Positions 2,214 through 51,054 of a DNA stretch of 52,019 nt are shown piece after piece. This DNA is from Eubacteriales bacterium (GTDB taxonomy: Bacteria; Bacillota; Clostridia; Lachnospirales; Lachnospiraceae), in NCBI GenBank assembly GCA_030536995.1, contig JAUNOY010000020.1:1-52019 (forward strand). The letters are read 5' to 3'. The notes beneath the pieces are model-generated. The model was not told the origin of the DNA. It ran no database searches and saw only the letters and a program-made list of their open reading frames with translations. Both the position numbers and the translations under genes were made by a program. The first letter of the stretch is position 1. Each line of letters begins with the position of its first letter.

Positions 2214-3341
2214 TCACTTTTTCAATACTTTTCCTGAAATAAAGAAGGCTCCTGCCAGTGAGGTAAAGGGAACTGTAAGGATTACTCCCATACTTGCGGA
2301 AATCCCCTGCATCAGTTCGATTCCAATAGAATACATATTGATGATCTGATGATAGGAATAATTATAAGCAAAAATAAATACCAGTGTGTTGAGAGAGCCA
2401 CCTGCAAAAGCAAGGATCAGCGTATTTGACATAGTTCCCATCATATCTTTTCCAACATTCATGCCGCTTTTAAACAAGTCCCACATTCCAAGATCCGGGC
2501 GTCTGCTGTATATTTCCTGTAAAGTAGAGGCAATAGACATTCCTACATCCATTACTGCTCCCAGTGATGCGATCAGGATCCCTGCAAACAGAAGTTCATT
2601 TATTTTTATAGCTGTTTTCTCTTCCAGGTAAATCAGCTCTTCAATATCACTTACATTATAACCTGTGATCCGAGTTACTTTTCCAAATATTCCTGCAAAT
2701 ATAACAGCCATTACAACACCGGTTACAGTTCCGGAAATTGCAGTTAATGATTTAACAGAAATTCCGGAAATCAGATAAATTGTTACTACAGTGGTTATAA
2801 CGGCAACAACTACCGCTGAAAAGATTGGCGAAACACCTCTGTATATCATCGGAAGAAACAGAAACAGCACACATACAATGGTAAAGCCCAGCCCCATTAC
2901 AGATGCCGCACCTTTTTTTCCACCGATCAGGATAATTGCCAGAAGAAACACTGCAATCATAAAATATAAGGAAAATTCACGGTCAGCACTATATACAGAT
3001 GCAATGACTTCACCCTGTGATTCACTGACCAGTGCAATGACTTTCATACCCTTTTTACAGGTTGCACCAAACAGATAGCTGGAAGAACTGATTGCTTCCA
3101 CTTTTTCGTTCTTAAATTTGCCGGAACAGAGTCGCAGCCTGACTGTCTGATTACCTACTCTGTTTCCGTTTTCTGTAAGGTTATCTGAAATAACCTCTGT
3201 TACTACTGCTTTCTCAAAGGTTCTGCCCTCTGTAGAAAGAAGTTCTGTTTTTTCGATCTTATTATATTGCATCAGAAAAATGAGGAAAAGGATGCCTGCG
3301 ATCACCAGGCACCCTCTCCGAAGGAAATTTTTGTTTAACAT
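2214..3341 (-). CDS. YibE/F family multi-pass membrane protein
   Basis: Residues 1-25 form a membrane anchor. A soluble, probably extracytoplasmic domain of about 100 residues follows, then about seven hydrophobic segments, as in the YibE/F family, whose biochemical role is unknown. Family hallmarks are GAVMDVGMSIAST and SGMNVGKDMMGTM followed by LILAFAGG. Its ATG overlaps the TAA stop of the upstream metallophosphoesterase (TAATG), so translation is probably coupled. The same arrangement occurs at the other end of the window with an alkaline phosphatase and a paralogous YibE/F, which suggests a job tied to extracellular phosphate release, for example transport of a product or ion. That job is inference only. 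Confidence 0.85.
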   Translation of the reverse strand: MLNKNFLRRGCLVIAGILFLIFLMQYNKIEKTELLSTEGRTFEKAVVTEVISDNLTENGNRVGNQTVRLRLCSGKFKNEKVEAISSSSYLFGATCKKGMKVIALVSESQGEVIASVYSADREFSLYFMIAVFLLAIILIGGKKGAASVMGLGFTIVCVLFLFLPMIYRGVSPIFSAVVVAVITTVVTIYLISGISVKSLTAISGTVTGVVMAVIFAGIFGKVTRITGYNVSDIEELIYLEEKTAIKINELLFAGILIASLGAVMDVGMSIASTLQEIYSRRPDLGMWDLFKSGMNVGKDMMGTMSNTLILAFAGGSLNTLVFIFAYNYSYHQIINMYSIGIELMQGISASMGVILTVPFTSLAGAFFISGKVLKK

Positions 3342-5914
3342 TATTTTGCTTTCACCTTAATTGTTTTGCTTGCTGCACCATACACGTTCTTGTCTGAAAC
3401 TTTGGTAAATGCTTTTACTCTTACATAGTAAGTTTTTCCTTTGGACAGATTTTTAAGAGTATATGTAGTTTTTGCTGTACGGTAAGTAGTTACCTTTTTG
3501 AATGAAGAATCTGTGGAAACCTGAATTGCATAGCCGGAAACTTTTCCACCTGCTTTTCCGATCGTAACAGTGGCTGTTCCGGATTTTCCGGCTTTCACAG
3601 TTTTTAACACTGCTTTCTTTGGCACAATCTTAAATGTTACTGTCTGTGTTCCTGTATACTTTCCGATTCCATTGATGGTTGCTTTTGCCAGACCTGTATT
3701 TTTGTTATCTGTATAGGTAACTGTGTAGTCTTTTCCTGCCTTTAAGGTCTTTCCATTCAGAGTTACTTTAAGAGCCGGCTGGATCTGTTTTCCTGTATAA
3801 ATCTGATTCTTCACTTTCCCTACAGATGCTGATTTAATATCTTCTGTCACACCTTTTTTAATCGTAAAGGTTTCATCAATTTTCTGGTCATTATCTGTAC
3901 GATAAGTATTGATCGTAAATGTATTATCTGTTACATCAATAACAGAATAAGTCGGAACATCTTCCTGCCATCTGTTTGCAATATAGCTCTGCATTCTTGG
4001 TACAAGATCATAATACTTGCTTCCTGATGAAGAGTTTGCTGTCATATAGAGAATACCATCCGGATTTACAACTGTCTCACCCTTTTCTGTATCCTCTATC
4101 GCATCCTTATCCATGACTGCATTCAGATAATTCAGATAAGCCACATCAGCCGGTTCCTTGGAATCTGCGGAAATATTTGCCGGTGCTTCATATCTTGTAG
4201 CCGGATTTTCTCCTGCATCCATATCCTTGTCCAGCTCTGCATCAAACTCATCATCCGTATATTCTACAGTTTTATGTCCACCCTCAAGAATATGGGTACG
4301 GGAATATGCATGATCGTGTCCTGTAAGAACAACATCTACATCATTTGCTTCAAAATAGGGTACCAGTGTATATCTGAGGTTTGTAATCTCCGGTTCATTG
4401 GAATGCTCTGCAGAACCATAAATATCCTGATGTAAAGTTACGACTCTCCAGGTACAGTTTGGATTTGCAGCAATCGCCTGTTCCATAAACTGTTTATGTT
4501 CAGCAGCATTGGTATCCTGTGTATTGAGCATCATAAACAGAGTGTTTCCATATGTAAAATAATAATCTCCACCAACAACTCCGTTAGAACCCAGGTCGCT
4601 GCTGTTTGGTGTATTAAAATGATATGTGTAGTTCGCATTGTCTGCATCATGGTTACCAACTGTAGTTGCAACAGGAAGGGATTTCAGCACATCCGGGCTT
4701 AAATATCCGGTATACTCAATCTCACTGGTCATTTCACTTTTTCCCGGAGATTTCTTCTTTGTTGTCTGGATCTGGTCACCTGCTGATACTACGAAGCTTG
4801 CATTTCCGCCTGTTTTATCCATAGCTTCATTTAATGTGGTGTTCCAGTTAAAGGAATCATTTCTGACCGCATCGGACTGTGCCTGATAAAATTCTGCTGT
4901 ATCAGAGCCTTTCAGTTCATTGGAAGATCCGATCTGCGGATCACCTACGAAAATAAAGCTGTAATTATTTGTTGATTTTGTAGCATATTCTGCAGGTTCT
5001 GTGTAGGTTCCATCCTCTTTTTCATAGCTGTAATAGTACACAGTATTGGCACTCAGACCTGTTGCTGTCACTTTATTGGAAACATATGCCTCATTGGTCT
5101 TTGTATTTGTCGTTGCATCTGTCTGCTCTGCAACATACACTTTGGCATTTTTCATATTTCTGCCTTCACCGATGATCAGTTTCGGTGCAGTTGTATCAGC
5201 CTGTGCTCCAAGAATATTTGCTACCATTGCGGCAATTGCACGACTTTCATCGCTTTCTGTATCAAAATCAGGAAGATCCTTATCTGCGTTTGCTTCTGCC
5301 GCGAATTCCTCTTCGTCATTCTCAGAAGCACTAAATGCTGCTGCGTTTTCTCCTTCTTCCGCATTAAATGCTGCTGTGTTTTCTCCTTCTTCCGCATTAA
5401 ATGCTGCTGTGCTTTCTTCTGTTGCTGTATCCACTTCAGTTATTGCAGTTTCCTCTGCTATATTTACTTCTGTTGCTGCATTTGATTCTGTCTCTTCAGC
5501 CTGTGCTGCTTCCACTGTTTCACCTGCTGCTGAAGTATCGGCTTCTGTTCCTGCAAAGACAGATTCACTGCTGTCACTGAAAGCATCACCTGACTGAGCG
5601 GAGAACTCCTGTGCAGCCTGTTCTTCTTTCTTTTCTGCTGTGTCAGAGTTGTCTTTTTTAGAATACCATGCGAAATTTAACTGGCTAAAGTCAGAGCCCG
5701 GAGTAAGTGAAATCTGAGTCCAATCATTCTTAACAGCTTCCCATTCTGCCTTCCAGGATTCCCAGTTCTGGGAAATTCCCATTCCGCCTGCAAGAGAAGC
5801 AGCATCTGTTTTTCCGTCCGGTGCTGCACTTGCAAATGCCGGAGTAACCGCTCCTGCTGTCAGTGAGACTGATAAAATACCTGCCATAAAACTTTTTCGC
5901 CACAAGTTGTTCAT
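3341..5914 (-). CDS. Secreted purple-acid-phosphatase-like metallophosphoesterase
   Basis: The 857-residue protein starts with a Sec signal peptide (cleavage near AFASA, residue 30), then an acidic Ala/Glu-rich linker with 11-residue repeats, a fibronectin-like N-terminal domain (about 240-315) and a calcineurin-like phosphoesterase domain (about 320-640). Metal-ligand motifs are in order: GDPQIG, AGDQIQ, GNHDADN, LHQD and GHDHAYSRT. The Tyr of the purple acid phosphatase GDxxY motif is absent (GDQIQT), so it is PAP-like rather than strictly purple. The C-terminus has a YTGKQIQP bacterial Ig-like module and a fibronectin type III domain (YYVRVKAFTK). No sortase motif or terminal anchor is seen, so it is probably released or wall-associated through the C-terminal modules. 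First gene of an operon with yibE/F and the EAL gene. Substrate unknown; phosphate scavenging from organic phosphoesters is likely. Confidence 0.88.
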   Translation of the reverse strand: MNNLWRKSFMAGILSVSLTAGAVTPAFASAAPDGKTDAASLAGGMGISQNWESWKAEWEAVKNDWTQISLTPGSDFSQLNFAWYSKKDNSDTAEKKEEQAAQEFSAQSGDAFSDSSESVFAGTEADTSAAGETVEAAQAEETESNAATEVNIAEETAITEVDTATEESTAAFNAEEGENTAAFNAEEGENAAAFSASENDEEEFAAEANADKDLPDFDTESDESRAIAAMVANILGAQADTTAPKLIIGEGRNMKNAKVYVAEQTDATTNTKTNEAYVSNKVTATGLSANTVYYYSYEKEDGTYTEPAEYATKSTNNYSFIFVGDPQIGSSNELKGSDTAEFYQAQSDAVRNDSFNWNTTLNEAMDKTGGNASFVVSAGDQIQTTKKKSPGKSEMTSEIEYTGYLSPDVLKSLPVATTVGNHDADNANYTYHFNTPNSSDLGSNGVVGGDYYFTYGNTLFMMLNTQDTNAAEHKQFMEQAIAANPNCTWRVVTLHQDIYGSAEHSNEPEITNLRYTLVPYFEANDVDVVLTGHDHAYSRTHILEGGHKTVEYTDDEFDAELDKDMDAGENPATRYEAPANISADSKEPADVAYLNYLNAVMDKDAIEDTEKGETVVNPDGILYMTANSSSGSKYYDLVPRMQSYIANRWQEDVPTYSVIDVTDNTFTINTYRTDNDQKIDETFTIKKGVTEDIKSASVGKVKNQIYTGKQIQPALKVTLNGKTLKAGKDYTVTYTDNKNTGLAKATINGIGKYTGTQTVTFKIVPKKAVLKTVKAGKSGTATVTIGKAGGKVSGYAIQVSTDSSFKKVTTYRTAKTTYTLKNLSKGKTYYVRVKAFTKVSDKNVYGAASKTIKVKAK
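5312..5410 (-). repeat. Three 33-bp tandem repeats in the metallophosphoesterase linker
   Basis: A 33-bp unit is repeated about three times, two units nearly identical, encoding AAFNAEEGEN-type 11-residue repeats and a diverged AAFSASENDEE unit. The reading frame is kept. It makes a flexible acidic spacer between the signal peptide and the catalytic part, and copy number could vary between strains. Confidence 0.75.
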
Positions 5915-5985
5915 TTTTTCATAATCCTCCTGAGAAATGAATGTTTCATCACACGATCACAGATCGGGTGTTCATTACATTGGAG

Positions 5986-6044
5986 AGTATAGAAACATTG
6001 AGAAAAAAGTTCAATAGACTTTACTGAGGTTTAACTATATTTAA
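5986..6044 (-). promoter_or_regulatory. Promoter of the phosphatase operon with phased TTAA-type half-sites
   Basis: On the minus strand a -35 TTGAAC (6009-6014) and a -10 TATACT (5986-5991) are separated by 17 bases. Four similar hexamers, TTAAAT, TTAAAC, GTAAAG and TTGAAC, begin exactly every 10 bases (6039, 6029, 6019, 6009), the last overlapping the -35. This layout resembles the tandem half-sites bound by PhoB/PhoP-type response regulators under phosphate starvation. The regulator is inferred. Confidence 0.6.
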
Positions 6045-6075
6045 CATAGGTCTTACACTACTGTTCGCTCCGTTC

Positions 6076-6468
6076 TCAGTAACAGCTGACACCAAAGTAC
6101 ATCCTGCAGGAAATTCGGCTCAAAGTGCTTTCCTCGGACAGGTTCTGACACATTCCATACACAAAATACATTCTGTTCCGTTTTCTGGAGTTATCGGTCA
6201 TATCAACATTCATCGGACAAACTTTTTTACATTTTCCACATGAAATACACTTCTCTTTGTCACACTTAATTCTGGCTGCCGAGAAATAGCTCATAGGTTT
6301 CAGAAAAACTGTGACCGGACAAATATACTTACAAAACGCTCTGTTATCTTTGAATCGGAATGCCAGAATAATCCCCACAATATAATACAATTTATAGGCG
6401 TTTGCGAAACGCCACAACACCGCATAAATACGGCATTTTTTGTTACCTAAAAACAAATAACTCCTCAC
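6076..6468 (-). pseudogene. Truncated and frameshifted 4Fe-4S membrane protein (NapH-like)
   Basis: The fragment has FCKYICPVTVFLKP, then an intact ferredoxin-type cluster motif CDKEKCISCGKCKKVCP. In the current frame the second cluster is lost, but the alternative frame reads ECILCMECVRTCPRKAL and stops near 6120, as the family does, so an indel lies around the RKRN codons. The usual N-terminal transmembrane half (family about 250-300 residues) is missing on the side facing the insertion sequence. Such proteins pass electrons to membrane redox enzymes; this copy is inactive. No partner redox gene is nearby. Confidence 0.8.
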
Positions 6469-6538
6469 TGGACATGGTATAATAGAGTTGACTAAAAACT
6501 ATAAACCTACATCCAAGAAAGGAGTTATTCTGATACTT

Positions 6539-8011
6539 ATGATACCATATAAACAGCTTTCTTTGGCAGATATTTTTTCAGATTGCCATGAAAAATTTGA
6601 AAATGACAAACCTGCTTTTCTTTCTCTATTAGAAACACATATCGATATTGATGAGTTAATTCCGATTTCTTTTAGAAATCATTTCTATGCATCGACAGGC
6701 AGAACCCGTAAATACCCTTTGCAAGCTTTTATGTGGGCTTTGATTATTCAGCGTATTTTTTCTATCCCTACGGATCAGCTTCTCCTGACTTTTCTCGCTT
6801 ACTCAAAATCACTTCGGGAATTCTGCGGTTTTATTAAAGTCCCTGACGCTTCCAAAATCACCCGATTCAAACAGGATTTTTTAGATGACCTCCAGCTTGT
6901 TTTCGATAACCTTGTTGATGTTACCGAGCCTATCTGTCAGGCGATTGACTCTGCAAAAGCGGATATGACCATCTTTGATTCTTCCGGCATCGAAGCATTT
7001 GTTACCGAAAATAATCCCAAGTATGCTAACAGGATCATCAAACAGCTTAAGGCATATGCGAAAGCTCAGGGCTTTGATAAATCCTATGATCCTTATAAAG
7101 CTGCCTATGGTTCCATGCCTTCTCATGCTTCTGCTAATCCTGAGATTAAGCAGCTTTATATCAATGGGCATTTTTGCTATGTCTTCAAGTTCGGTATTGT
7201 CACCAACGGACTGGGCATCATCCGCCACATATCTTTTTATAACAAAAACTTTATGGCTTCACATCCTGATATCGTTGTCGAAAAGAAATCCGATTCCCTT
7301 GACGAAGATAAATGTGTTCATGATTCAAAGCTTTTAATCCCGACACTGAAGGACTTCTTTTCCAAGCATCCTTTGATTAATCCAAAAACCTTCCTAGGTG
7401 ATGCTGCTTTCGATACCGCACAGCTCTATAAGAGCCTTCTTACCGGTGACACTTTTGGTAATGACAAACATTTCTCGAAAGCTTATATTCCGCTGAATGC
7501 AAGATCCGGACTTGAAAATCTGGATTATTTCATCAATGAAGATGGTATTCCGTGTTGTCCCCATGATCCTTCTTTACAAATGAAGTACGAAGGCACTTGC
7601 AAACTTCGCAGTGGAGTAACAAGATATAAATTTGTCTGTCCAAAAATGAAATGGATTTATGATAAATCAACTCAAAAAGCCCATCGTCATTGTTTCTGTG
7701 ACAACCCTTGTACCTCTTCTAAATGTGGGCGGATGGTTTACATCTACCCAGAAAAGGATCTTCGTGCTTATCCCGGAACGATCCGCGGCACCGAAGAATG
7801 GGATGATACCTATAAAATCAGAACTGTTGTCGAAAGGGATATCAACCACATCAAAGACAATCTCTGTCTTGCAGGACGCCGAACCCAAAATGAGAAGACT
7901 CTGCATGCTGATCTGATTCTTGCCGGTATCACCCAACTTATTACTGTTGTTCTCGCAGATAAGATCAATCACCACGAATATATTCGAAGCTTAAAGCCTC
8001 TCATAGCATAG
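6539..8011 (+). CDS. DDE transposase of an insertion sequence (IS1182/IS5-like)
   Basis: The 490-residue protein has an N-terminal DUF772-like region (residues ~30-110, ISFRNHFYASTGRTRKYPLQ) and a split DDE nuclease core: MTIFDSSGIEAF for the first Asp, FLGDAAFDTAQLY for the second, and TVVERDINHIKDNL for the Glu. A cysteine-rich insert (CCPHDP, HCFCDNPCTSSKC) lies between the last two. The frame can be read from a TTG at 6488, but the ATG at 6539 follows an AAGGAG site and gives the usual family length, so it is preferred. All catalytic positions are present, so the element may be active. A TATAAT (6475-6480) lies upstream. I could not define terminal inverted repeats or a target duplication. 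It lies between two decayed, unrelated genes. Confidence 0.85.
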   Translation: MIPYKQLSLADIFSDCHEKFENDKPAFLSLLETHIDIDELIPISFRNHFYASTGRTRKYPLQAFMWALIIQRIFSIPTDQLLLTFLAYSKSLREFCGFIKVPDASKITRFKQDFLDDLQLVFDNLVDVTEPICQAIDSAKADMTIFDSSGIEAFVTENNPKYANRIIKQLKAYAKAQGFDKSYDPYKAAYGSMPSHASANPEIKQLYINGHFCYVFKFGIVTNGLGIIRHISFYNKNFMASHPDIVVEKKSDSLDEDKCVHDSKLLIPTLKDFFSKHPLINPKTFLGDAAFDTAQLYKSLLTGDTFGNDKHFSKAYIPLNARSGLENLDYFINEDGIPCCPHDPSLQMKYEGTCKLRSGVTRYKFVCPKMKWIYDKSTQKAHRHCFCDNPCTSSKCGRMVYIYPEKDLRAYPGTIRGTEEWDDTYKIRTVVERDINHIKDNLCLAGRRTQNEKTLHADLILAGITQLITVVLADKINHHEYIRSLKPLIA

Positions 8012-8037
8012 GACTTACCAACTTAATAAGACCTATG
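8007..8037 (+). terminator. Hairpin just after the transposase gene
   Basis: CATAGG-a-CTTA pairs with TAAG-a-CCTATG around a nine-base loop. It overlaps the transposase stop codon. No long T-run follows, so it may be a weak terminator or a subterminal structure of the element. Confidence 0.4.
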
Positions 8038-8124
8038 GCTTATTTAAGTGTGCCTAAAATATTTCGTCATTTAACGTTTCTGCATTTATCATCTCCATTT
8101 ATTGTGGATAACTGCTATCATATT

Positions 8125-9296
8125 TCAAATTTGAGTTTCGCAATTACCTATTTTCACTCCTGTAATACCAAGTGCGATCTCCAACAACTCCGCAGCCACC
8201 TGATTGTTTTTAATACGCATCAAATTATCCCACGCATCTTCTTTCCCCAGTAGATTCATACCGCCCATACCAGTTCATCATCAATAACTGCAAATCGTTC
8301 TTCCACTTCTTCTTTTACCAATACTAACAATCTGTCAATTTTCTCCTGTCGGATATTTGGATTGGAAGTCACGATTGATTTTTCTGCCTCCACCAAATCC
8401 TGCCCAAATTTTTCCGTATAATTGCCAGAGTCAAATATTGCATGAACAACTTGTTTATCTTGCGAGTCTCCTGTCCAGATAGAGAAGCCTGTTTTCTTAT
8501 AGGTTTGAAGTCTCTTTCCATACGTTTTATTAAACATTCTCATATGTGCATCAATATAATCGTACACATAAACCGCTTCTTTCCCCTCGTAATCACGATT
8601 CAGTCTTCCTATATACTGTTCCATACAACCTCCAAAGTATACCAGTACTGCAAGCCTCAGTACATCCAATCTCGGAAAATCAAATCCTTCTCCTATCTTT
8701 TGTCCAGTTGCAATCAATATAAAACTTTTCGTATGCGAAACCTGTTTTAATCGTATCCGTATTTCAGCATTTTCCTTATCCGAATTATTTCCATCCTACT
8801 ATCCACAATATCGATCACTCTCGTATATCTCGGAACAAAATAATGGCCTATTCCCTGCTCTTCGGCTCTTTCCAATGCAGTAAACCTGTGTCTTAATGGC
8901 CCCAACATCATATAGATAATTTTATCCATATAATCGCCACGTTTGGGTGTGGCAGAAACTTCATAGCTGCTTTGGGCAAAGTCTATCATTCCATCTGTTT
9001 TCACATTGTGGAAAATAACCGCCATTCTTACCACATCTGGCATAAACATCCTCTCTTTCCCCAAACATAGAAAAAAAGCGTATCGCCATCTTCTCTGTAA
9101 TAAACGTAGGATGAACAATACGCGCTCCTTGGTCAAGATCATACTCTTCTGCATTTTCTATCGTCTCTTCAAAAGGATTAATCTCGTCATATGGAATATT
9201 TTCTTTTTTCAATTTGTCTTTTAGTATCCTGTCTTCATGTTCAAGTAATCGAACAATCTTCCTCAAAGATTCCGCATCATATGCCTCTATATTCAT
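8125..9296 (-). pseudogene. Decayed TOTE-type primase-helicase (AEP primase, SF2 helicase, PLD-like tail)
   Basis: Pieces of one large protein lie in order but in different frames. The N-terminus has a coiled start, then FITEKMAIRFFSMFGERED and GGYFPQCENRWNDRLCPK, the beginning of the archaeo-eukaryotic primase domain of TOTE conflict systems. It joins out of frame to SATPKRGDYMDK, helicase motif III, at about 8970-8975, so most of the primase and helicase motifs I-II are deleted. A second deletion joins RVIDIVDS to NSDKENAEIR near 8780, followed by IATGQKIGEGFDFPRLD and YIGRLNRDYEGK (helicase motifs V-VI). A 4-base loss near 8260 throws MNLLGKEDAWDNLM (8125-8259), the PLD-like tail, out of frame. 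The intact protein would be around 900 residues. It was the fourth gene of the operon starting at 10906 and retains a GGGGACGG ribosome site. TOTE systems are predicted anti-mobile-element defences. Confidence 0.8.
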
Positions 9297-9334
9297 AACC
9301 GTCCCCTATATTACTAACAAATAAGAACTCTTTG

Positions 9335-9763
9335 TCACATATACGGCTCTATCGTAAATAGCGTCTGCTCTCCGACCTTTTTACTTACCAATTCAAATAA
9401 ATTTTCTTTCGTTGCGAACAGATTCTTAGGATTTCTCCCGATAATTAGATACTGATTTCTATCATCTAGCGAAATATGTTTCCTTGTATCGTCATTTAAT
9501 AAAATATCTGCATTATCAATGACAACCAGTTTCCCCTCTGTTTGGCTGATTATTTCTTTTATATCTTTCTGATAATCATAATTATCCAAACACAAAATCC
9601 TGGGATTAACTGCCATACATTCTCTGATAAATGAAAATGTTGCTGTCTTTCCTGTTCCTGAATCCCCCATTAAGATTGTTATATTATTGGTAAATGTAAA
9701 GTCCACCACAAACGAAGTATGCACTGTTGAAAGATGTTCCATTACAATCGGTTTACTCTTCAT
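9335..9763 (-). CDS. Small P-loop ATPase of a TOPRIM/DUF4869-like cassette
   Basis: This 142-residue protein starts with a beta-rich segment, then the Walker A motif GDSGTGKT (about 33-40) and a Walker B strand KLVVIDNADIL (about 79-89). A sensor-like strand NQYLIIGRNP follows. It is far smaller than AAA+ or ABC ATPases and carries no extra DNA-binding domain. No ABC signature LSGGQ is present. Its ATG lies inside the end of the upstream DUF4869-like gene with an 11-base overlap, so the two are translationally coupled. The third gene of the cassette; the decayed TOTE primase-helicase follows 38 bases downstream. Role unknown; an NTPase motor or switch for the TOPRIM-like partner is plausible. 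Confidence 0.75.
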   Translation of the reverse strand: MKSKPIVMEHLSTVHTSFVVDFTFTNNITILMGDSGTGKTATFSFIRECMAVNPRILCLDNYDYQKDIKEIISQTEGKLVVIDNADILLNDDTRKHISLDDRNQYLIIGRNPKNLFATKENLFELVSKKVGEQTLFTIEPYM

Positions 9764-11854: not shown

Positions 11855-11864
11855 TTTTCATTTT

Positions 11865-42718: not shown

Positions 42719-42766
42719 ATTATGCACTATTATCATTTTCCTTGTCAATAATATCATAAGTATTAT
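42719..42766 (-). promoter_or_regulatory. Promoter of the esterase-LysR operon with LysR-like palindrome
   Basis: Minus-strand TTGACA (42743-42748) and CATAAT (42719-42724), 18 apart. Touching the -35 on its upstream side is ATAATA-N7-TATTAT (42748-42766), perfect 6-base arms. The geometry (arms around a 7-base centre) equals the metN palindrome, and it lies in the divergent region next to the lysR operon. Autoregulation is inferred. Confidence 0.45.
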
Positions 42767-42809
42767 ATAAGTACAACAAAAAGAAAAAAAATTTCTTTTA
42801 AAAAAGGTA

Positions 42810-42865
42810 TTGAAATATTTTTTCAGAAGTGCTATAGTGTGCTCATAAGGGAGTTGAAAAAACTC
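42810..42865 (+). promoter_or_regulatory. Promoter of the amino-sugar ABC operon with downstream inverted repeat
   Basis: TTGAAA (42810-42815) and TATAGT (42833-42838) with 17 bases between. Just past the start site GAGTT-N5-AACTC (42851-42865) forms an inverted repeat positioned like a repressor operator; the RpiR-type regulator at the end of the operon is the candidate ligand. Confidence 0.6.
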
Positions 42866-42902
42866 AGAACGAAAAGCAAGTTTAAAAGGAGGATTTTTTA
42901 AG

Positions 42903-44201
42903 ATGAAAAAAAGCAAAGTTTTATCCACAATTCTTGCAGGCGCTATGATCGGTTCCATGCTTGTTCCTGCAGCATCTGTTTCCGCAGCTGAAACAACAGA
43001 AATTACATGGTGGGCATTTCCTACTTTCGCACAGGACAGTGTAGACGCTGAGCCAGGCGCTTATGAAAAAACCATCATTGAAGCATTCGAAGCAGCTAAC
43101 CCGGACATTAAAGTAAATCTTGAAACCATCGACTTTACTTCCGGTCCTGAGAAAATCACAGCAGCTATCGAAGGCGGTACAATCTGTGACGTATTATTCG
43201 ATGCCCCTGGACGTATCATTTCCTATGGTAAAAACGGTAAACTTGCTGACTTAAGCGACATGTTTACAGATGAATTTGTAAAAGACGTAAACAACGATAT
43301 GCTTCTTCAGTCCTGTAAAGCAGGCGATACAGCTTATATGTACCCATTAAGCTCCGCTCCTTTCTACATGGCATTTAATAAAGAAATGGTTGAAGACGCA
43401 GGTGTTGCAGACCTCATTAAAGATGGTTGGACAACAGACGACTTCACAACAGTAGCAAAAGCGCTTCAGGAAAAAGGCTATATGCCGGGTTCCGTATTCT
43501 GCTCCGGTCAGGGCGGTGACCAGGGAACACGTGCATTTGTTGCAAACCTTTTTGATAGCTCTATCACAGACGACGCTGTAACAGAATACACAATCAACGA
43601 TGAAGGCGGTGTTAAAGCTCTTGATTACATCAAAACAGCAGTTGACGAAGGCTACTTGTTAAATGGTTCTGCATACGCAGGCGGCGATGATATTAAGAAC
43701 TTCGCTACAAAACAGACTGCTTTCACATTACTTTGGGGACCTGGCACACAGAACTCCAACCAGACACTGTTAGATGATAATAAAATTGAAACAATTGAAG
43801 TTCCAATGCCATCTGCAGACGGTGTTCCGGAACTTGAATACCTTGTAAACGGATTCTGTATCTTCGACAACGGCGATGATGCTAAAATCGAAGCTTCCAA
43901 GAAATTCCTTCAGTTCCTTTGCGACGACGCTGAATGGGGACCAAAGAACGTAGTTCGTACAGGCTGCTTCCCAGTCCGCACATCCTTCGGTGATCTCTAT
44001 GAAGGCGATGAAAGAATGAACACAATCGCATCCTGGACAAAATATTATTCTCCATACTACAACACCATCGACGGTTTTGCAGAAATGAGAACATACTGGT
44101 TCCCGATGCTTCAGGCAGTTATGAATGGCGACAAAGATGCACAGACAGCAGCAGACGAGTTTGTTGAGTCCTCCAACGCATCTATCAAAAATGCACAGTA
44201 A
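42903..44201 (+). CDS. Extracellular sugar-binding protein of a sialate/amino-sugar-type ABC importer
   Basis: The 432-residue protein has a signal peptide ([20 protein letters not shown], cleavage near SVSAAET) with no lipobox cysteine, then [41 protein letters not shown] and [15 protein letters not shown]. This resembles the group-1 sugar-binding proteins of Lachnospiraceae sialic acid loci as I remember them, an assignment supported by the YhcH and ROK genes downstream. AGGAGG precedes the ATG. First gene of a six-gene operon. Confidence 0.85.
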
Positions 44202-44233
44202 GAAACTGTTTCTGATTATTCAGTAAGTGTCAC

Positions 44234-44262
44234 AGAGCCTTGCGGGACATCTGCAAGGCTCT
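44234..44262 (+). terminator. Intercistronic hairpin after the binding-protein gene
   Basis: AGAGCCTTGC pairs perfectly with GCAAGGCTCT around nine bases. No T-run follows, so it more likely protects the upstream 3' end than terminates fully. The fucosidase-linked ABC operon has a hairpin in the same position. Confidence 0.7.
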
Positions 44263-44287
44263 CACTATTTGGGATTGGAGAGATAAA

Positions 44288-45181
44288 ATGAAAGCATCAA
44301 ACAAAATAAGAATGAGGGAAACGATCGTATCCTATCTTTTCCTCGCTCCGGCATTGTTTTTCTTCATTGTATTTGTATTATTCCCCATGGGGCTCGGTAT
44401 TTTTACCAGCTTATTCAAATATACAATGAAAGAATTCACCTTCATCGGACTCAATAACTACATTACCATGTTTAAGGATCCTGTATTCCAGAAGTCTTTT
44501 ATCAATACACTAATCCTGGTTGTAGGTTCCGTTCCGATTGTTGTTATCTTCGCTCTGTTCGTATCTTCTCAGACATACGAAAGAAGCGCATTTACACGTT
44601 CCTTCTTCCGCTGCGTATTCTTCCTTCCGGTTGTAACCGGTACAGTAGCCGTAACGGTTGTATGGAAATGGATTTATGACCCATTAAGCGGTATTTTAAA
44701 CTTCGTACTTAAAAACGGCGGTATTATTGACAGAAATATCATGTGGTTAGGTGATAAGAAATATGCTCTTCTGGCGATTCTTATTATCCTCCTTACCACT
44801 TCTGTAGGTCAGCCTATTATCCTCTATATTGCCGCAATGGGTAATATTGACAAATCACTGGTTGAGGCAGCCCGTGTAGACGGTGCTACAGAATTTCAGG
44901 TATTCTGGAAGATTAAATGGCCAAGCCTTTTACCAACCACACTTTATATCGTAGTTATTACAACTATCAACTCCTTCCAGTGTTTCGCGCTGATCCAGCT
45001 CCTAACCTCGGGCGGACCAAACTACTCGACCACTACCATTATGTATTATCTGTATGAAAAAGCCTTCAAGCTTTCTGATTATGGATATGCAAATGCAATG
45101 GGTGTATTCCTGGCAGTTGTAATCGGACTTATCAGCTTCGCTCAGTTCAAGTTCCTTGGCGGCGATGACGTAGAATATTAA
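44288..45181 (+). CDS. Carbohydrate ABC transporter permease, MalF type
   Basis: About 297 residues, six membrane segments, and the EAA loop VEAARVDGATEFQVFWKIKWPSL. The ATG at 44288 follows GGAGAGA; the frame upstream to 44240 lies in the hairpin region. Partner of the next permease; no ATPase gene in the operon. Confidence 0.92.
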   Translation: MKASNKIRMRETIVSYLFLAPALFFFIVFVLFPMGLGIFTSLFKYTMKEFTFIGLNNYITMFKDPVFQKSFINTLILVVGSVPIVVIFALFVSSQTYERSAFTRSFFRCVFFLPVVTGTVAVTVVWKWIYDPLSGILNFVLKNGGIIDRNIMWLGDKKYALLAILIILLTTSVGQPIILYIAAMGNIDKSLVEAARVDGATEFQVFWKIKWPSLLPTTLYIVVITTINSFQCFALIQLLTSGGPNYSTTTIMYYLYEKAFKLSDYGYANAMGVFLAVVIGLISFAQFKFLGGDDVEY

Positions 45182-45201
45182 TGAAGGGAGAATAGATTGA
45201 T

Positions 45202-46029
45202 ATGGGTAAGAAAAAAGTAACACCTTTTGTAGCTGTGTCCTTCGTGATTCTCACTCTTCTGACAATATTATTTGTCTTTCCGTTTTACTGGATCATCACG
45301 GGCGCATTTAAGTCCTTAAGCGCAGCTGTTGCCGTACCTCCACAGTGGTTTCCGGCAGAACCGACTTTAGAAAACTTTGTCACCTTATTTAAAAATCCTG
45401 CTGCAAGATGGATGTTCAACAGTATCTTTATCGCAGGTGTAACTATGCTGGCAGTATGTGTAACAGCTTCTCTGGCAGGTTATGTACTCGCTAAAAAACG
45501 CTTTTACGGTCAGAAAATCCTGTTCAGCATTTTTATCTTTGCTATGGCACTTCCAAAACAGGTTATCACCGTACCTCTTGTAAATATGATCAGTAAGCTT
45601 GGTATCCACAATACTCTTGCTGCTGTTATTCTTCCACTGATTGGATGGCCTTTCGGTATTTTCCTGATGAAGCAGTTCAGTGAGAATATTCCCGGTGAGC
45701 TTCTCGAATCTGCAAAAATTGATGGATGTAATGAATGGAAAACTTTCTGGTCTATCGCATTCCCAATTGTAAAACCAGGTTTTGCAGCTCTTGCAATCTT
45801 TACCTTCATCAACACATGGAATGACTACTTTATGCAGCTGGTTATGCTTGCCTCCCGAGAAAACCTCACCATTTCCCTTGGTGTCGCAACTCTTCAGGCC
45901 GAGTTTTCTACCAACTACGGTCTGATTATGGCAGGTGCTTTCCTTGCTGCTATTCCGATCGTAACTGTATTCCTTGCATTCCAGAAATCGTTCACCCAGG
46001 GTATTACAATGGGTGCTGTTAAAGGCTGA
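45202..46029 (+). CDS. Carbohydrate ABC transporter permease, MalG type
   Basis: The 275-residue protein has six membrane segments and the EAA-type loop LESAKIDGCNEWKTFWSIAFPIVKPG. TNYGLIMAGAFLAAIPI and a final QGITMGAVKG are typical of the family. AGGGAG precedes the ATG. Predicted to work with the preceding permease and a shared ATPase encoded elsewhere. Confidence 0.92.
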   Translation: MGKKKVTPFVAVSFVILTLLTILFVFPFYWIITGAFKSLSAAVAVPPQWFPAEPTLENFVTLFKNPAARWMFNSIFIAGVTMLAVCVTASLAGYVLAKKRFYGQKILFSIFIFAMALPKQVITVPLVNMISKLGIHNTLAAVILPLIGWPFGIFLMKQFSENIPGELLESAKIDGCNEWKTFWSIAFPIVKPGFAALAIFTFINTWNDYFMQLVMLASRENLTISLGVATLQAEFSTNYGLIMAGAFLAAIPIVTVFLAFQKSFTQGITMGAVKG

Positions 46030-46037
46030 TGCAACCC

Positions 46038-46063
46038 AAAGGCTGCCCTGCAGGGCAGCCTTT
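46038..46063 (+). terminator. Strong hairpin terminator or attenuator after the permeases
   Basis: AAAGGCTGCCC-TGCA-GGGCAGCCTTT, a perfect 11-base stem followed by T-rich sequence. The next gene starts 36 bases later without an obvious promoter, so read-through at reduced level is likely. Confidence 0.85.
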
Positions 46064-46098
46064 TGTTATCTTATGTATAATTAAGGAGGAATTCTCGT

Positions 46099-46545
46099 AT
46101 GATTTATGATATGCTTACAAATGTAGAAAAATACCGCGGAATTTCAAAAAATCTCGATACAGCCATAGATTTTCTTGTAAAGACAGACCTTTCTGCTCTG
46201 CCTCTTGGCCGGACAGAAATCGATGGCGACAATGTTTTTGCCAATGTAATGGAAGCTCAGGCAAAGCCTGTAGAAGAGCTTAACTTTGAAATTCATAAAA
46301 AATATATGGACATTCAGATTGATATTGAAGGAACAGAGGTTATCTGCATCGGGCTGGGCGAAGCCAAAGAGCTTACTCCATTTTCCGGCGATTTCGGAAC
46401 TGTCACTGTCGAAAACAGTTCTACCTGTATTATGGGACCGGGACGCTTCATTGTCTGCATGACCGAAGAACCCCATCTTCCAAGCGCCGCTGCATCAGAA
46501 GACCTTCACCTGAAAAAATGTGTAATTAAAGTCGCTGCTTACTGA
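46099..46545 (+). CDS. YhcH/YjgK/YiaL family protein (NanQ-like sugar anomerase)
   Basis: The 148-residue cupin-like protein has the family motifs FEIHKKYMDIQIDIEGTE, with metal-binding His, and TEEPHLPS near the C-terminus. Members next to sialic acid genes speed opening or mutarotation of the sugar ring (NanQ). Its place between sugar permeases and a ROK kinase fits the first cytoplasmic step on an imported acidic or amino sugar. GGAGG precedes the ATG. Confidence 0.88.
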   Translation: MIYDMLTNVEKYRGISKNLDTAIDFLVKTDLSALPLGRTEIDGDNVFANVMEAQAKPVEELNFEIHKKYMDIQIDIEGTEVICIGLGEAKELTPFSGDFGTVTVENSSTCIMGPGRFIVCMTEEPHLPSAAASEDLHLKKCVIKVAAY

Positions 46546-46558
46546 CAGGAGGAAATTT

Positions 46559-47437
46559 ATGAATATCGCAGTTTTAGACATTGGAGGAACCTCCATTAAA
46601 TCCGGAATCTACAGAAACGGAAAATTAGAAGAAAAAAAAGAAACGCCTACCGAAGCACAACTGGGAGGCGCTCATGTGATGAAAAATGCAATTGAAATTC
46701 TGAAATCCTATAAAGATTTTGACAGAATCGGAATCAGTACTGCCGGGCAGGTGGATTCCGAAAAAGGAATAATCCGCTATGCAAATTCCAATATCCCCGG
46801 TTATACAGGCACTGACATCCGTGGAATCCTTACCAGCGAATTCGGCGTCCCTGTTGCCGTAGAAAATGATGTCAATGCAGCGGCTCTCGGTGAAGCCGGA
46901 TTTGGAGCAGGGCGAGAATACAATGACTTTCTCTGCCTTACCTACGGTACAGGCGTAGGCGGCGCTATTGTTATAGATAAAAAAATATACACCGGTTCCT
47001 GTTTTTCTGCCGGTGAATTCGGCGCTGTTCTGGTTCATCCGGAAGACAGAAACTTCGAAGAGGATGAATTCAGCGGCTGCTATGAGCGCTATGCATCCAC
47101 CACCGCTCTCGTGAGATGTGTGCAGAAAGTCTTTCCTGAGCTTGACAACGGAAGAGCAATTTTTGCCCGAATCGACGAACCCGAAATTCAGGAGCTGGTA
47201 AACGAATGGATTGACGAAATCGTATACGGACTTACGTCCCTGATTCACATTTTTAACCCCTCCTGTATCGTCCTTGGCGGCGGTGTAATGAAACAACCCT
47301 ATATAGCTACAAATCTTGAAAGCAAATTATATCATAACATAATGCCCAGTTTCCGTAATGTTCGCATTAAAACCGCAGAACTTGGAAATGACGCCGGTAT
47401 GTTAGGCGCCGTTCGGATAGCGGAAGCTCTCCCCTGA
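46559..47437 (+). CDS. ROK family sugar kinase (possible N-acetylmannosamine kinase)
   Basis: The 292-residue kinase has the ATP-binding DIGGTSIKSGIY, the catalytic region VAVENDVNAAALGEAGFGAG and TYGTGVGGAIVID. The canonical ROK zinc motif CxCGxxGCxE is incomplete; only SGCYE remains, and the usual His-x-Gly-His is reduced to LVHPED. Zinc-less ROK kinases include several ManNAc kinases, so NanK is a fair guess, with glucose or other hexoses as alternatives. Separated from the YhcH-family gene by 13 bases and preceded by AGGAGG. Confidence 0.85.
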   Translation: MNIAVLDIGGTSIKSGIYRNGKLEEKKETPTEAQLGGAHVMKNAIEILKSYKDFDRIGISTAGQVDSEKGIIRYANSNIPGYTGTDIRGILTSEFGVPVAVENDVNAAALGEAGFGAGREYNDFLCLTYGTGVGGAIVIDKKIYTGSCFSAGEFGAVLVHPEDRNFEEDEFSGCYERYASTTALVRCVQKVFPELDNGRAIFARIDEPEIQELVNEWIDEIVYGLTSLIHIFNPSCIVLGGGVMKQPYIATNLESKLYHNIMPSFRNVRIKTAELGNDAGMLGAVRIAEALP

Positions 47438-47474
47438 CAAAAAGGAGTAAAACTCCAGGAAAAGAGGAATTTCT

Positions 47475-48338
47475 ATGTCCAGTGAAAATTTAGTTTCAAA
47501 AATACAGTCTGCATACCCGGGATTTACACGCACAGAAAAAAAGGTTGCCGACTATGTATTAAAAAATCAAAAAAAAGTTCTGTATATGTCTATCACAGAC
47601 CTTGCAGATGCCTGCCAGGTGGGTGATACCAGTGTTTACAGATTTTGCAGAACCCTGAATCTTCAGGGATATCAGGAATTTAAGCTAAAATTGTCTCTCG
47701 GTCAGAGAAGCACCACAACTCAGATTGGTGTGATTTCACCGACAAGCAATGCTGCGATCGATGATTCTCTTCGCGGAACTGCCGACAGAGTTCTTCAGAT
47801 TCATACAAGCGCTCTGCGTGAAACCTATTCTCTTCTTGACCAGGATCGATTTGTAGAATTCCTCAGATTAATCGAGGATTCAAGAAGAGTATATTTCTTC
47901 GGTATCGGAGACAGCCTTCTGTCTGCACAGGAAGCATGTAATAAATTTATGCGTATCGCCCCAAAAGTTTACTGTCTGTCAGACCCTCATATGCAGTCTA
48001 TGGCAGCCGCTACTATGACAGAAGAAGATTTTCTGGTAATTGTATCCTATTCCGGTTCTACGAAGGATAATATCCATGTTGCAAAAATAGCGAAAAAAGC
48101 CGGTGCCAAACTGGGATGCATCACCCGTTTCGCAAAATCGCCTCTTGCATCCTACTGTGATGCCATTCTTCTGTGCGGTTCAGATGAGGGGCCTCTGGAC
48201 GGCGGTTCTATCGGTGTGAAGGTCAGCCAGCTTTTCCTGATTGACCTTCTCTACCAGGAATACTATAACCGAAATTACGATGTCTCCATAGAAAATAACC
48301 AGAAAGCCTCCAATGCAGTTTTAGACAAGCTTTTTTAA
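47475..48338 (+). CDS. RpiR/MurR family regulator with SIS domain
   Basis: The 287-residue protein has an N-terminal HTH_6 domain (TRTEKKVADYVLKN, ADACQVGDTSVYRFCRTL) and a C-terminal SIS sugar-phosphate-binding domain (about 125-250; YFFGIGDSLLSAQEACNKF and VSYSGSTKDNIHVA). Such regulators answer to phosphorylated sugars, here likely the product of the ROK kinase. Last gene of the operon; the stop overlaps the convergent YibE/F gene by four bases. Confidence 0.92.
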   Translation: MSSENLVSKIQSAYPGFTRTEKKVADYVLKNQKKVLYMSITDLADACQVGDTSVYRFCRTLNLQGYQEFKLKLSLGQRSTTTQIGVISPTSNAAIDDSLRGTADRVLQIHTSALRETYSLLDQDRFVEFLRLIEDSRRVYFFGIGDSLLSAQEACNKFMRIAPKVYCLSDPHMQSMAAATMTEEDFLVIVSYSGSTKDNIHVAKIAKKAGAKLGCITRFAKSPLASYCDAILLCGSDEGPLDGGSIGVKVSQLFLIDLLYQEYYNRNYDVSIENNQKASNAVLDKLF

Positions 48339-49459
48339 CCCTTGGCCTTGCGGGTTAAGAGCCATGCACTTGTTAGCGCGGTGAAAGGAGCTACCGTTAC
48401 CAGACCAAAACTTCCCACAATTGTATCAAGGATTTCCGCAGAGACATATTTGTAATTGAGAATATTGTCTATTGGCGTTCCCTGTGCCATGAAGGTCATT
48501 AAAAGGGCAATATAGCCGCCGGAGTAAGCAAGGAGAAGGGTAGTTGTCATAGTTCCCATAGCAGCCCGTCCGACATTCATTCCTGAACGGGCTGCTTCTT
48601 TCCATCCAATATCCGGTTTTTTCTGAATCACTTCATTGACTGCAGAGGTAATATCTACCGCAAGATCCATCATTGCACCGGAAGCACCGATAAAAATTCC
48701 ACTCATAAATATCTGGGTCAGATTCAAATTTTGATAACCGGAATATAAAAGACTTTCCGAATAAGGCATCACTGCACCGTGAATTTTGAACAAATCTGTA
48801 AAAATACATCCCATTATGCAAGTTACAAAAACTCCAAGAAGCGCCCCGCTGCTGGCTGCCAGAGTCTTTTTATCAAATCCATATACAAGAAATATAATCA
48901 TAACTGTGAGAAAAACCGTAATCAGAATCCCACACCAGATTGGATTAATTCCCCGAAGATAGGCAGGTACCATGATTTTCCATATTGCCAATACGGTAAT
49001 CGCAAAAGAATACACTGCCCGAAGACCTGTTTTTCCCGCAAAAAAAACAAGAAGCACTACGAACATGACTGCAAGAACGATTTCTTTATCCAAACGGTAA
49101 TGGTCTGTCATTGTCACAGATAAAATATCTTTCTCTTTATAACTTATTACAACCTGTGCAATATCTCCTTCTGAAAAAATCTTATCTGACTCCAGAGAGC
49201 CGCTCAGCATATTTACAGCCTTTACTTCCTGTCCCTTAAACTTTCCTCCAAGAATCTTTACTTTACAATATTGTTCTCCGGAACGAATCAGACCATTATT
49301 TGTCACAGTACTCTCATCTGTAGAAATTACCTCTGCTCTCACCCTGTCTGTTCCCTTATAAATAACAGCATCCTCATAGCCTGTAGGAAAGACTATGAGG
49401 ATGAGGATTATCAGGAGTGCAAGGATGGATACACTGTTTTTCCTGATTTTTTGTATCAT
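48335..49459 (-). CDS. YibE/F family multi-pass membrane protein (second copy)
   Basis: The 374-residue paralog of the protein at 2214-3341: an N-terminal anchor, a soluble domain of about 100 residues, then about seven membrane segments. Shared motifs are GASGAMMDLAVDITSA and SGMNVGRAAMGTM followed by TLLLAYSGG. The ATG overlaps the alkaline phosphatase stop (ATGA), so the two proteins are probably made together. Function of the family is unknown; the repeated coupling to unrelated secreted phosphatases suggests a role in handling what they release or need. Confidence 0.87.
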   Translation of the reverse strand: MIQKIRKNSVSILALLIILILIVFPTGYEDAVIYKGTDRVRAEVISTDESTVTNNGLIRSGEQYCKVKILGGKFKGQEVKAVNMLSGSLESDKIFSEGDIAQVVISYKEKDILSVTMTDHYRLDKEIVLAVMFVVLLVFFAGKTGLRAVYSFAITVLAIWKIMVPAYLRGINPIWCGILITVFLTVMIIFLVYGFDKKTLAASSGALLGVFVTCIMGCIFTDLFKIHGAVMPYSESLLYSGYQNLNLTQIFMSGIFIGASGAMMDLAVDITSAVNEVIQKKPDIGWKEAARSGMNVGRAAMGTMTTTLLLAYSGGYIALLMTFMAQGTPIDNILNYKYVSAEILDTIVGSFGLVTVAPFTALTSAWLLTRKAKG

Positions 49460-51054
49460 TTTTCAGTTACTCCTGTGAGTGCCGCTACCTTATGGAAGAT
49501 ATCTGTGTTATCGTAGTATCCGCCAAACTGTTCCTGACCTACACCCATTGCAAATACTTCCACCGGAAGACCTGTATGTGCATAAGAACCGAAATTGATA
49601 CCGGATTTATTATTCAGAATATGTGTAATTGTTACTGTAAGAGGTTCATAACTTCCATAAAGAACATACTCTTCCTGACTAAATTCTTCTTCCTCGCCTG
49701 TGCGGCTCATTGTTTCCTCATAGGCAGCTTTTAACTTATCATACTCATACTCTGTAAGAACAAGAGACCCTTTATCCTCTGACTCCGGATGCACATCCTT
49801 ACTGTCTGCCTGATTTGTTTTTTCTTCCTCTGATACAGGAGCCTGCAGCCCGAAAAGCTCTGTCACATCCGCCATAACTGTATCAAAATCTGTTTTATTC
49901 TCTTTATATCCTGCAACGTAATCAGAATCAAATTTCGCATATGAAATCTTCTGATTTGAGATGTTGGAAAGGAACGTATCATAATCTGTTCCTGCAAATC
50001 CAATAGTCAATCCACCGGTCTCATGGTCTCCCGTTACAAGTATCAGGGTTTCATCCGGATGTTCATTATAGAATTCCACTGCTTTTCCAACAGCATCATC
50101 CATAGCTACCGTATCTGTGATTGTTGCTGCTGCATCGTTTGCATGACAGGCCCAGTCAATCTTTCCGCCTTCACACATCATAAAGAAACCATTCTCATTA
50201 TCAAGAACTTCGATTCCTTTTTCCACATAATCTGCAAGACCCCATTCTCCTTCTTCCAGATCCATATCGTAGCTCATTGCATCGTCATCTGCAAGTGTCT
50301 CATCGATTACAATTGCTTTTCCATCTTCTGCTGTTAAAGCTTCTGCCTCTGCCTGGGTTTTGATTACCTTATAACCAGCCTCCTGGGCAAGCTCATAGAG
50401 ATCTTTTTTATCTCCCTCTGCGCCTGTTGTCTTCTTAAGTCCGCCGCCTGCAAAATAATCAAACTCACTTGCAATCATCTCTTCGCCGATTTCATAGTAA
50501 TTATTTCTGGATGCCTGATGCGCATAAAATGCTGCCGGTGTTGCATGATTTAAGTTTACGGAAGAAAGAATACCCACTTTATATCCAAGCTGTTTTTTCA
50601 GCTTCTCTGCGATAGTTTCATATGGTGTTTCCATCTTTTCATCCATATTGATTGTACCGCTGTAGGTCTTATGTCCTGTAGAAATAGATGTTGCTGTTGA
50701 CGCAGAATCCGGACAGAAAGATGTACTGTCATATGTCTGCGCAGAACCTGCAACTGGGAACTTCATCATATTTAATTTATTTTCGCTGGTAAGAATTTCG
50801 TCTCCGTCATCCTCCATTGCATTCAAATAATAATTGGTTGCCTGTACCTGAGGATAGCTCATTCCATCTCCGATAAAAAGAAAGATATATTTCGGAATAC
50901 CTGTTTCTGCAGTTTCTCCTGATGCCGCTGTATCTTCCGCTGCTTTCTCTGTTTCGGTTGCTGTATCTGTCGCTGCCATTGTTATCTGTGGCATCGCTGT
51001 AGTGGAAAGGATCGCTGTTGCCAATAAAAATGCGCTGATTTTTTTTGCTTTCAT
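49456..51054 (-). CDS. phoA: Secreted alkaline phosphatase
   Basis: Hydrolyses phosphomonoesters outside the cell, with two zinc and one magnesium. The ~532-residue protein has a Sec signal peptide (MKAKKISAFLLATAILSTTA, cleavage near TMAATD), a Thr/Glu/Ala-rich linker, and all PhoA-family motifs: IFLFIGDGMSYPQ, nucleophile Ser in CPDSASTATSIS, STGHKTYSG, MCEGGKIDWACHAND, LVTGDHETGG and SYAHTGLPVEVFA. An acidic insert lies around 435-490. Start at 51054 gives the signal peptide and follows AAGGAG; the longer frame does not. No lipobox or sortase signal. Operon with yibE/F. Confidence 0.93.
   Translation of the reverse strand: MKAKKISAFLLATAILSTTAMPQITMAATDTATETEKAAEDTAASGETAETGIPKYIFLFIGDGMSYPQVQATNYYLNAMEDDGDEILTSENKLNMMKFPVAGSAQTYDSTSFCPDSASTATSISTGHKTYSGTINMDEKMETPYETIAEKLKKQLGYKVGILSSVNLNHATPAAFYAHQASRNNYYEIGEEMIASEFDYFAGGGLKKTTGAEGDKKDLYELAQEAGYKVIKTQAEAEALTAEDGKAIVIDETLADDDAMSYDMDLEEGEWGLADYVEKGIEVLDNENGFFMMCEGGKIDWACHANDAAATITDTVAMDDAVGKAVEFYNEHPDETLILVTGDHETGGLTIGFAGTDYDTFLSNISNQKISYAKFDSDYVAGYKENKTDFDTVMADVTELFGLQAPVSEEEKTNQADSKDVHPESEDKGSLVLTEYEYDKLKAAYEETMSRTGEEEEFSQEEYVLYGSYEPLTVTITHILNNKSGINFGSYAHTGLPVEVFAMGVGQEQFGGYYDNTDIFHKVAALTGVTEK

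Follow-up and report, generated by a model that had tools for sequence, protein, structure and literature searches.

Phosphatases of different folds recur beside YibE/F membrane proteins, a family with a probable role in metal handling

Introduction

Why should two secreted phosphatases of different fold each be followed, in one bacterial genome, by a gene of the same uncharacterised membrane family? The question is raised by contig JAUNOY010000020.1 of a Lachnospiraceae bacterium (assembly GCA_030536995.1), 52,019 nucleotides long, which was analysed as a complete contig (C7) and is called the window below. It carries a metallophosphoesterase (MPE) resembling purple acid phosphatases (PAP) and an alkaline phosphatase (AP), each directly followed by a gene encoding a YibE/F protein. 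An earlier note on this DNA had argued that such a pairing points to a shared function of YibE/F, perhaps export of the metal cofactor, import of the released phosphate or alcohol, or folding of the enzyme. Here we report that the gene pairing is real, conserved and informative on the uncharacterised YibE/F family, that phosphoesterases of several folds recur beside YibE/F genes, and that the neighbours of other YibE/F genes point to a metal-related role of the family.

The two membrane proteins of the window share membership of the YibE/F family (PF07907; TC 9.B.141), for which no function is given in the passages of one source that deal with it (PMC3924187). The literature passages seen that name yibE propose no metal role for YibE/F, the form of the name with a slash being unsearchable. 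In Staphylococcus aureus, according to an excerpt, two YibE/F-like genes are needed in blood, where their mutants are depleted, and the same is reported for mntABC and znuBC (PMC13227979); this fits, without proving, a metal role. In L. reuteri, YibE/F and a metallophosphoesterase stand in the same list of up-regulated genes, in a passage that does not state their neighbourhood (PMC10459645).

Results

Two phosphatase-YibE/F pairs in the window

Both pairs were verified on the minus strand and consist of the following features, the residue numbers of YibE/F being throughout those of the 2214-3341 protein.

3341..5914, minus strand: MPE of calcineurin-like fold with an fn3 domain, probably secreted, 857 aa; PF00149 E 8e-13, PF00041 E 1.1e-6
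2214..3341, minus strand: MPE-paired YibE/F membrane protein, 375 aa; PF07907 E 1.4e-82
3339..3341, minus strand: start codon of the MPE-paired YibE/F in the sequence TAATG, its A being the final base of the MPE stop TAA
49456..51054, minus strand: AP, probably secreted, ATG at 51054 and stop at 49456; PF00245 E 1.2e-62
48335..49459, minus strand: AP-paired YibE/F membrane protein, 374 aa; PF07907 E 4.7e-83; D269/A299/T306 variant
49456..49459, minus strand: ATGA overlap of the YibE/F start and the AP stop

The presence of two phosphatases of different fold, each coupled to YibE/F through TAATG or ATGA, is thus confirmed from the sequence and from Pfam. The AP has a near-complete domain (212.7 bits, profile positions 2-420 of 423), and its listed open reading frame (ORF) is extendable to a TTG at 51111. 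The MPE lies above the cut-off for PF00149, while its match to the PAP N-domain PF16656 (E 7e-4) reaches 20.5 bits against a curated cut-off of 30. By eye, both enzymes have signal-peptide-like N-termini and appear to keep their metal-ligand motifs. The two YibE/F proteins score 277.3 and 278.9 bits against a cut-off of 27.2; PF07907 is their sole Pfam match at E 0.01, with no match to TerC (PF03741). Besides these two, no PF07907 gene occurs in the assembly, which is 92% complete and comprises 2.83 Mb in 40 contigs. The MPE-paired protein is 97% identical to the YibE/F of a Blautia wexlerae locus (L201), which has its own MPE directly upstream with a one-base overlap.

Phosphoesterases of several folds are enriched beside YibE/F

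Genomes with a PF07907 match above the cut-off numbered 35 of the 61 near ones (the source genome included), 85 of 293 in the class and 62 of 199 in the phylum. The class set was limited to genomes matching above the cut-off, with the fragmentary G182 left out and the fragments G125, G143 and G090 kept outside the counts; handle searches covered 80 of 82 genomes, without G182 and G282. In this set 113 loci were fetched regardless of their neighbours, and a profile of our own found YibE/F in 112 of them; L173 was lost because the profile missed its YibE/F. Partner profiles were built from the window enzymes and from neighbour genes, and covered AP, MPE, 5'-nucleotidase (5NT) and CehA/PHP proteins. 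Such partners make up 29 of the 220 immediate neighbours of YibE/F in the 112 class loci, compared to 1 of 1088 other genes (Fisher 1.8e-22, a test that ignores phylogeny), and comprise MPE 14 times, AP 8, CehA/PHP 4 and 5NT 3. The 29 paired loci are a lower bound because the gene caller, a greedy longest-ORF script with a minimum of 60 aa, put the MPEs of L118 and L160 on the wrong strand and the AP of L170 at position -2, which is the sole distant hit. The earlier note had predicted that secreted phosphatases with several different folds would be enriched next to YibE/F, and since this is what we found for phosphatases of secreted type, its argument for a shared function of YibE/F holds, on partner enrichment. 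Chance adjacency of phosphatase and YibE/F is ruled out by the same neighbour count.

The Pfam tallies, which took neighbours of at least 90 aa and same-strand upstream ones within 350 bp, gave Metallophos 10 times, Alk_phosphatase 8 and 5_nucleotid_C 3 among 67 same-strand upstream proteins; Metallophos appeared 4 times among 28 opposite-strand proteins and 4 times among 70 same-strand downstream ones. A partner of this kind is present in 17 of the 21 loci of the genus sample, the other four (L191-L194) being tandem yibE-yibF pairs. For the named loci, the 80 best of 584 matches were taken; the profile used was headed by the MPE-paired protein, so that the set is biased toward the MPE-paired clade. 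A partner is adjacent in 62 of the 80 (MPE 47, CehA 12, 5NT 3), with 5NT adjoining YibE/F in Treponema and Propionigenium. In the phylum sample (40 loci, two of every three in listed order), AP stands beside YibE/F in 7. Further pairs were seen by other means in L118, L160, L170, L301 (a fragment locus), L244 and L246, and in L159 the order is reversed, YibE/F coming first with a one-base overlap with the MPE. Recurrence in near, class, named and phylum genomes rules out a strain-specific pairing.

YibE/F is also plasmid-borne (26 records); among the 7 plasmid copies that were inspected, an annotated MPE is adjacent in one and a copper-binding protein in another, neither is in three, and two have no annotation. 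On a Lachnospira eligens megaplasmid (L281), the overlap between MPE and YibE/F is 13 bp, and genes for a sensor kinase and a response regulator come next; in L240 a kinase/regulator pair lies on the other side. On a Pseudarthrobacter conjugative plasmid (L287), the neighbours of YibE/F are a copper-binding protein of the four-helix-bundle type and a gene for cytochrome oxidase assembly. In L100, L113, L126 and the named CehA loci, the protein encoded beside YibE/F is very large and contains a metallohydrolase domain of the CehA/McbA type; for two large partner proteins, a search for homologues of solved structure gave none at E 0.01. In two related genomes (L080, L087), YibE/F lies behind a DUF6382-FHA protein.

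Tight spacing and pairing by clade

A gap of at most 25 bp was seen in 16 of 17 pairs within the genus, in 27 of the 50 pairs on the same strand in named close relatives, which include several genera such as Megasphaera, and in 2 of 21 class-wide pairs; overlap or abutment (gap of 0 or less) was counted in 2 of 17, 8 of 50 and 0 of 21, respectively. Tight spacing thus recurs in several genera yet is rare class-wide. The start-stop overlap seen in the window holds for some relatives, while most pairs across the class do not overlap. Neither a lack of phosphatase enrichment nor a strain-specific overlap, the two outcomes named in advance as refuting the idea, was observed, as spacing is close in other genera too.

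In a tree of 139 YibE/F proteins (FastTree, local support), the 17 AP-paired proteins form one side of a single branch. A second supported group (n=33) holds most MPE- and CehA-paired proteins and two 5NT-paired ones, a third consists of four further 5NT-paired proteins, and the CehA-paired L143 is placed elsewhere. The independent pairing with different folds that had been suggested therefore means pairing at the level of clades: AP pairing appears once in the tree, and MPE, CehA and some 5NT pairs share one clade, with a further one for 5NT. On the enzyme side, a comparison of 32 APs (19 paired and 13 full-length unpaired, multi-domain APs being left out) placed YibE/F next to 19 of 22 members of one subfamily, the window AP among them, and next to none of the 10 of the other. 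The metal site did not visibly differ between paired and free APs, in a motif read-out that was crude and misread many rows.

Metal genes lie near many other YibE/F

In the AP, MPE, 5NT and CehA/PHP families the active site holds metal ions, and these enzymes are here expected to be extracellular. YibE/F genes with no phosphoesterase partner often lie near genes for ZIP, TerC, an ArsP-type permease, DtxR, Fur or ZnuA (L125). In the phylum sample, Fur comes directly before YibE/F in close order in six loci (L315, L320, L321, L322, L324, L328), with MntP one or two genes beyond in L315, L320, L321 and L324. One locus has the order znuC-znuB-znuA-yibE/F, its first three genes encoding an ABC ATPase, an ABC-3 permease and ZnuA (L332); in another a P-type ATPase gene is directly upstream (L344), and FeoA, FeoB and DtxR genes surround others (e.g. 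L333, L336). A recurrent order of Na/Pi-cotransporter gene, Fur-family regulator and YibE/F was seen in L315, L320, L321, L322, L324, L328 and L330, with MntP nearby in several; it is a possible link between phosphate and manganese.

In order to count these neighbours, we scored Fur, DtxR, ZIP, TerC, ZnuA/B, FeoA/B, MntP and P-type ATPase, the assignments beyond the seeds being phmmer similarity at 1e-7 and ten seed or neighbour genes being checked by Pfam. Over stretches of about 6.5 kb either side (class, phylum), 8 kb (named) and about 5 kb (most control loci), metal genes were present near YibE/F in 26 of 112 class, 20 of 40 phylum and 5 of 80 named loci, and in 0 of 17 YibE/F-free control loci. 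None of the 26 class loci is among the 30 with a phosphoesterase match, and 2 of the 20 phylum loci also have an AP (L331, L343). Compared to the named loci (5/80), the class loci (26/82) give p 4e-5 and the phylum loci (20/40) p 8e-8 by Fisher test, the loci not being independent. In a genome-wide expectation test, for which counts were copied by hand and the number of ZIP genes was put at roughly 130, Fur occurred within 10 kb of YibE/F 10 times against 1.8 expected (p 2e-5), ZIP within 1.5 kb 3 times against 0.2, and TerC 2 times, both in one genus, against 0.013. Fur, DtxR, ZIP or TerC account for 11 of 220 adjacent and 9 of 1088 distant genes in the class loci. With the wider metal set, metal genes are concentrated in the nearest two positions of the phylum loci (30/143 against 8/273 farther out); the named loci gave 1/284 against 4/469.

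On these neighbourhoods, the YibE/F family probably has a metal-related role. Whether a paired YibE/F would load its exoenzyme with metal is an evenly balanced question; the idea follows from partners that belong to metal-dependent families and from other YibE/F loci devoted to metal transport and metalloregulation. Among the three suggestions made earlier, the one concerning the metal cofactor is the best supported in respect of metal supply because so many other YibE/F sit in such loci. YibE/F could instead be a metal importer or homeostasis protein that recaptures metal, or offsets its loss to the secreted metalloenzyme, with no loading at all. This would suit the ZnuABC, ZIP and FeoAB import systems nearby, but the exporter families MntP and TerC are neighbours as well and the one-to-one pairing of enzyme and YibE/F points to a client, so that we consider it unlikely, although it survives best among the alternatives to metal loading.

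A possible intramembrane carboxylate site

An AlphaFold2 model of the 2214-3341 YibE/F, based on 126 sequences, is confident (pLDDT 91.6, pTM 0.85) and, short helices omitted, displays a helix at 4-27, five strands at 40-119 and helices at 122-167, 172-192, 196-223, 247-280, 286-315 and 337-374. Exactly four acids occupy positions 265, 269, 276, 299, 304, 306 and 342 in 164 of 177 YibE/F sequences, the commonest set being D265, E276, D299 and E342. AP-paired proteins have D269 in 23 of 23 and alanine at 299 in 19 of 23, and seven MPE-paired proteins combine D304 with A342. From the helix limits of the model, 269 and 299 are similarly far from the turn of the hairpin 247-280/286-315. This pattern is what one expects of a putative cation site with retuned geometry. 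The alignment (A4) holds 126 of the 139 proteins, 13 divergent or redundant rows being left out. By sequence, a comparison of YibE/F with solved structures returned a single chain, at E 0.71.

Pho-box-like repeats upstream of AP and MPE operons

Repeats resembling Pho boxes precede both operons of the window.

6030..6057, plus strand: Pho-box-like 11-bp repeats upstream of the MPE operon; score 14.2, z 2.5 vs shuffles
51212..51239, minus strand: weaker Pho-box-like repeats upstream of the AP operon; score 14.8, z 2.2 vs shuffles

The consensus used (TTAACA-like, 11-bp period) is that of Bacillus subtilis. Such repeats are stronger upstream of AP (17 genes, mean z 1.85) and MPE genes (45 genes, mean z 1.88) than of 300 controls (0.31; related genes kept), and were not found upstream of 9 CehA or 6 5NT genes. 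Because of these repeats, expression of the AP and MPE pairs is probably a response to phosphate starvation, in keeping with the nature of the enzymes, and the expression of YibE/F would follow that of its enzyme, assuming co-transcription.

Import of phosphate or alcohol, also proposed in the earlier note, thus remains a live rival to metal loading. YibE/F would then move phosphate, a metal-phosphate complex or another product of the enzyme, and each pair would be a phosphate-scavenging unit. Most partners release phosphate, and in 7 of the 40 phylum loci a Na/Pi-cotransporter gene, verified in one case as PF02690 plus PhoU, is found upstream at a distance of two or three genes from YibE/F, past the Fur gene. 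However, the CehA and 5NT genes have no such repeats, the ZIP, ZnuABC, Feo, TerC and MntP neighbours are left unexplained, and phosphate uptake is already served by known families, which makes this rival a little more doubtful than the importer. Least probable is that YibE/F assists the secretion or folding of exoenzymes, or anchors them in the membrane, their need for metal being incidental: the five-strand domain, which the model places next to the membrane, the very large partners with wall or repeat domains, a signal peptidase gene before one YibE/F (L146) and the SpoIIP (3) and S41-peptidase (3) genes among 70 same-strand downstream neighbours would agree with it, but the recurrent upstream partners are metalloenzymes, the metal-gene class loci lack a phosphoesterase client, and folding alone, the third of the earlier suggestions, leaves the metal loci unexplained.

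Other genes near the MPE operon

Directly behind the first YibE/F, an EAL-domain gene (window 1610-2188) encodes 192 aa, compared to about 270 aa at the same place in L174 and L201, and behind it lies another fragment belonging to the same similarity cluster; the gene therefore seems to be disrupted in this strain. The DNA immediately upstream of the MPE operon (window 6076-8011) contains a short gene of the 4Fe-4S ferredoxin type and a DUF772/DDE transposase.

Discussion

The arrangement of the two loci, taken with the neighbours of their relatives, makes it about an even prospect that each pair is a small operon in which a secreted phosphatase that depends on metal is encoded with a membrane protein dedicated to metal handling. 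YibE/F would be a divalent-metal transporter with one N-terminal helix, a five-strand domain that order and hydropathy place outside the cell, and a membrane bundle with four conserved carboxylates. During secretion of the phosphatase, YibE/F would carry the metal needed for catalysis (Zn, Mn or Fe) out of the cytosol and deliver it at the outer face for the exoenzyme to fold around, and joint encoding would keep transporter and client together. The analysis itself shows the gene pairs and how far they are conserved, the range of partners, the metal genes nearby, the conserved carboxylates with their apparent shifts and a confident predicted model; co-transcription of each pair, metal transport by YibE/F, its export direction and the paired phosphatase as client are what we infer. 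The full proposal is more tentative: PF07907 may be an unrecognised divalent-metal transporter family with an intramembrane carboxylate site, several branches of which would have been recruited as dedicated partners for the metal loading of secreted metallohydrolases with three or more different folds (AP, calcineurin-like, PHP), the site being retuned for AP by one carboxylate crossing the helix hairpin.

Several observations weigh against metal loading by a dedicated partner. By script, 56 of the 112 class loci have neither partner set, although two of these (L118, L160) do have an MPE, and ComEC, spore photoproduct lyase, SpoIIP or S41-peptidase genes adjoin some YibE/F. The excess of Fur drops to 5 (p 0.04) once related clades are collapsed, and with the wider metal set the nearest two positions in the class, 23 of 415, do not differ significantly from farther ones, 20 of 635 (p 0.08). 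Metal and phosphoesterase neighbours are nearly exclusive, and one function for both locus types is for this reason something that we infer. The neighbouring ZnuABC, ZIP and Feo systems are importers, which makes the proposed export direction uncertain. The apparent relocations of carboxylates amount to about two events, at acid positions picked after viewing the alignment. Finally, no conserved His or Cys was found in the YibE/F alignment, unlike in many zinc sites, so that Mn- or Fe-like coordination is favoured over classical zinc coordination.

To our knowledge, the supply of metal to secreted enzymes of Gram-positive bacteria is largely open, with TerC as the main known answer. According to an excerpt, the TerC family proteins MeeF and MeeY of Bacillus subtilis (PF03741) support metalation of membrane and secreted enzymes, including LtaS (PMC10550928). 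Like TerC, YibE/F is a membrane protein proposed here to metalate exoenzymes, and in L108, L110 and L338 YibE/F has a TerC gene adjacent or close by; unlike TerC, with which it has no sequence match, it has a five-strand domain and is often encoded beside one likely client. A profile search did not find TerC in the source genome. Among 14 control genomes, Bacillus subtilis laboratory strains matched TerC and gave no PF07907 match; Lactococcus lactis and Corynebacterium glutamicum laboratory strains matched PF07907 in a control search. Across the class, TerC was above cut-off in 22 of 293 genomes, 14 of which also have YibE/F above cut-off, and the idea that YibE/F replaces TerC is thus unsupported. 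In vertebrates, as stated in the passages seen of one source, ZnT5-ZnT6 and ZnT7 load zinc into zinc enzymes of the early secretory pathway, with the alkaline phosphatase TNAP as reporter (PMC3799634). A paired YibE/F in its proposed role would likewise supply metal to a secreted enzyme, alkaline phosphatase included, whereas ZnT proteins are of the eukaryotic SLC30 family, and no such family matched YibE/F in the Pfam search.

If metal loading is true, the pairs of YibE/F and enzyme would be simple client systems in which to study the loading of metal at the membrane, and a function would be suggested for YibE/F in many Firmicutes and beyond. Bacteria would then have a counterpart to the zinc loading of alkaline phosphatase in animal cells.

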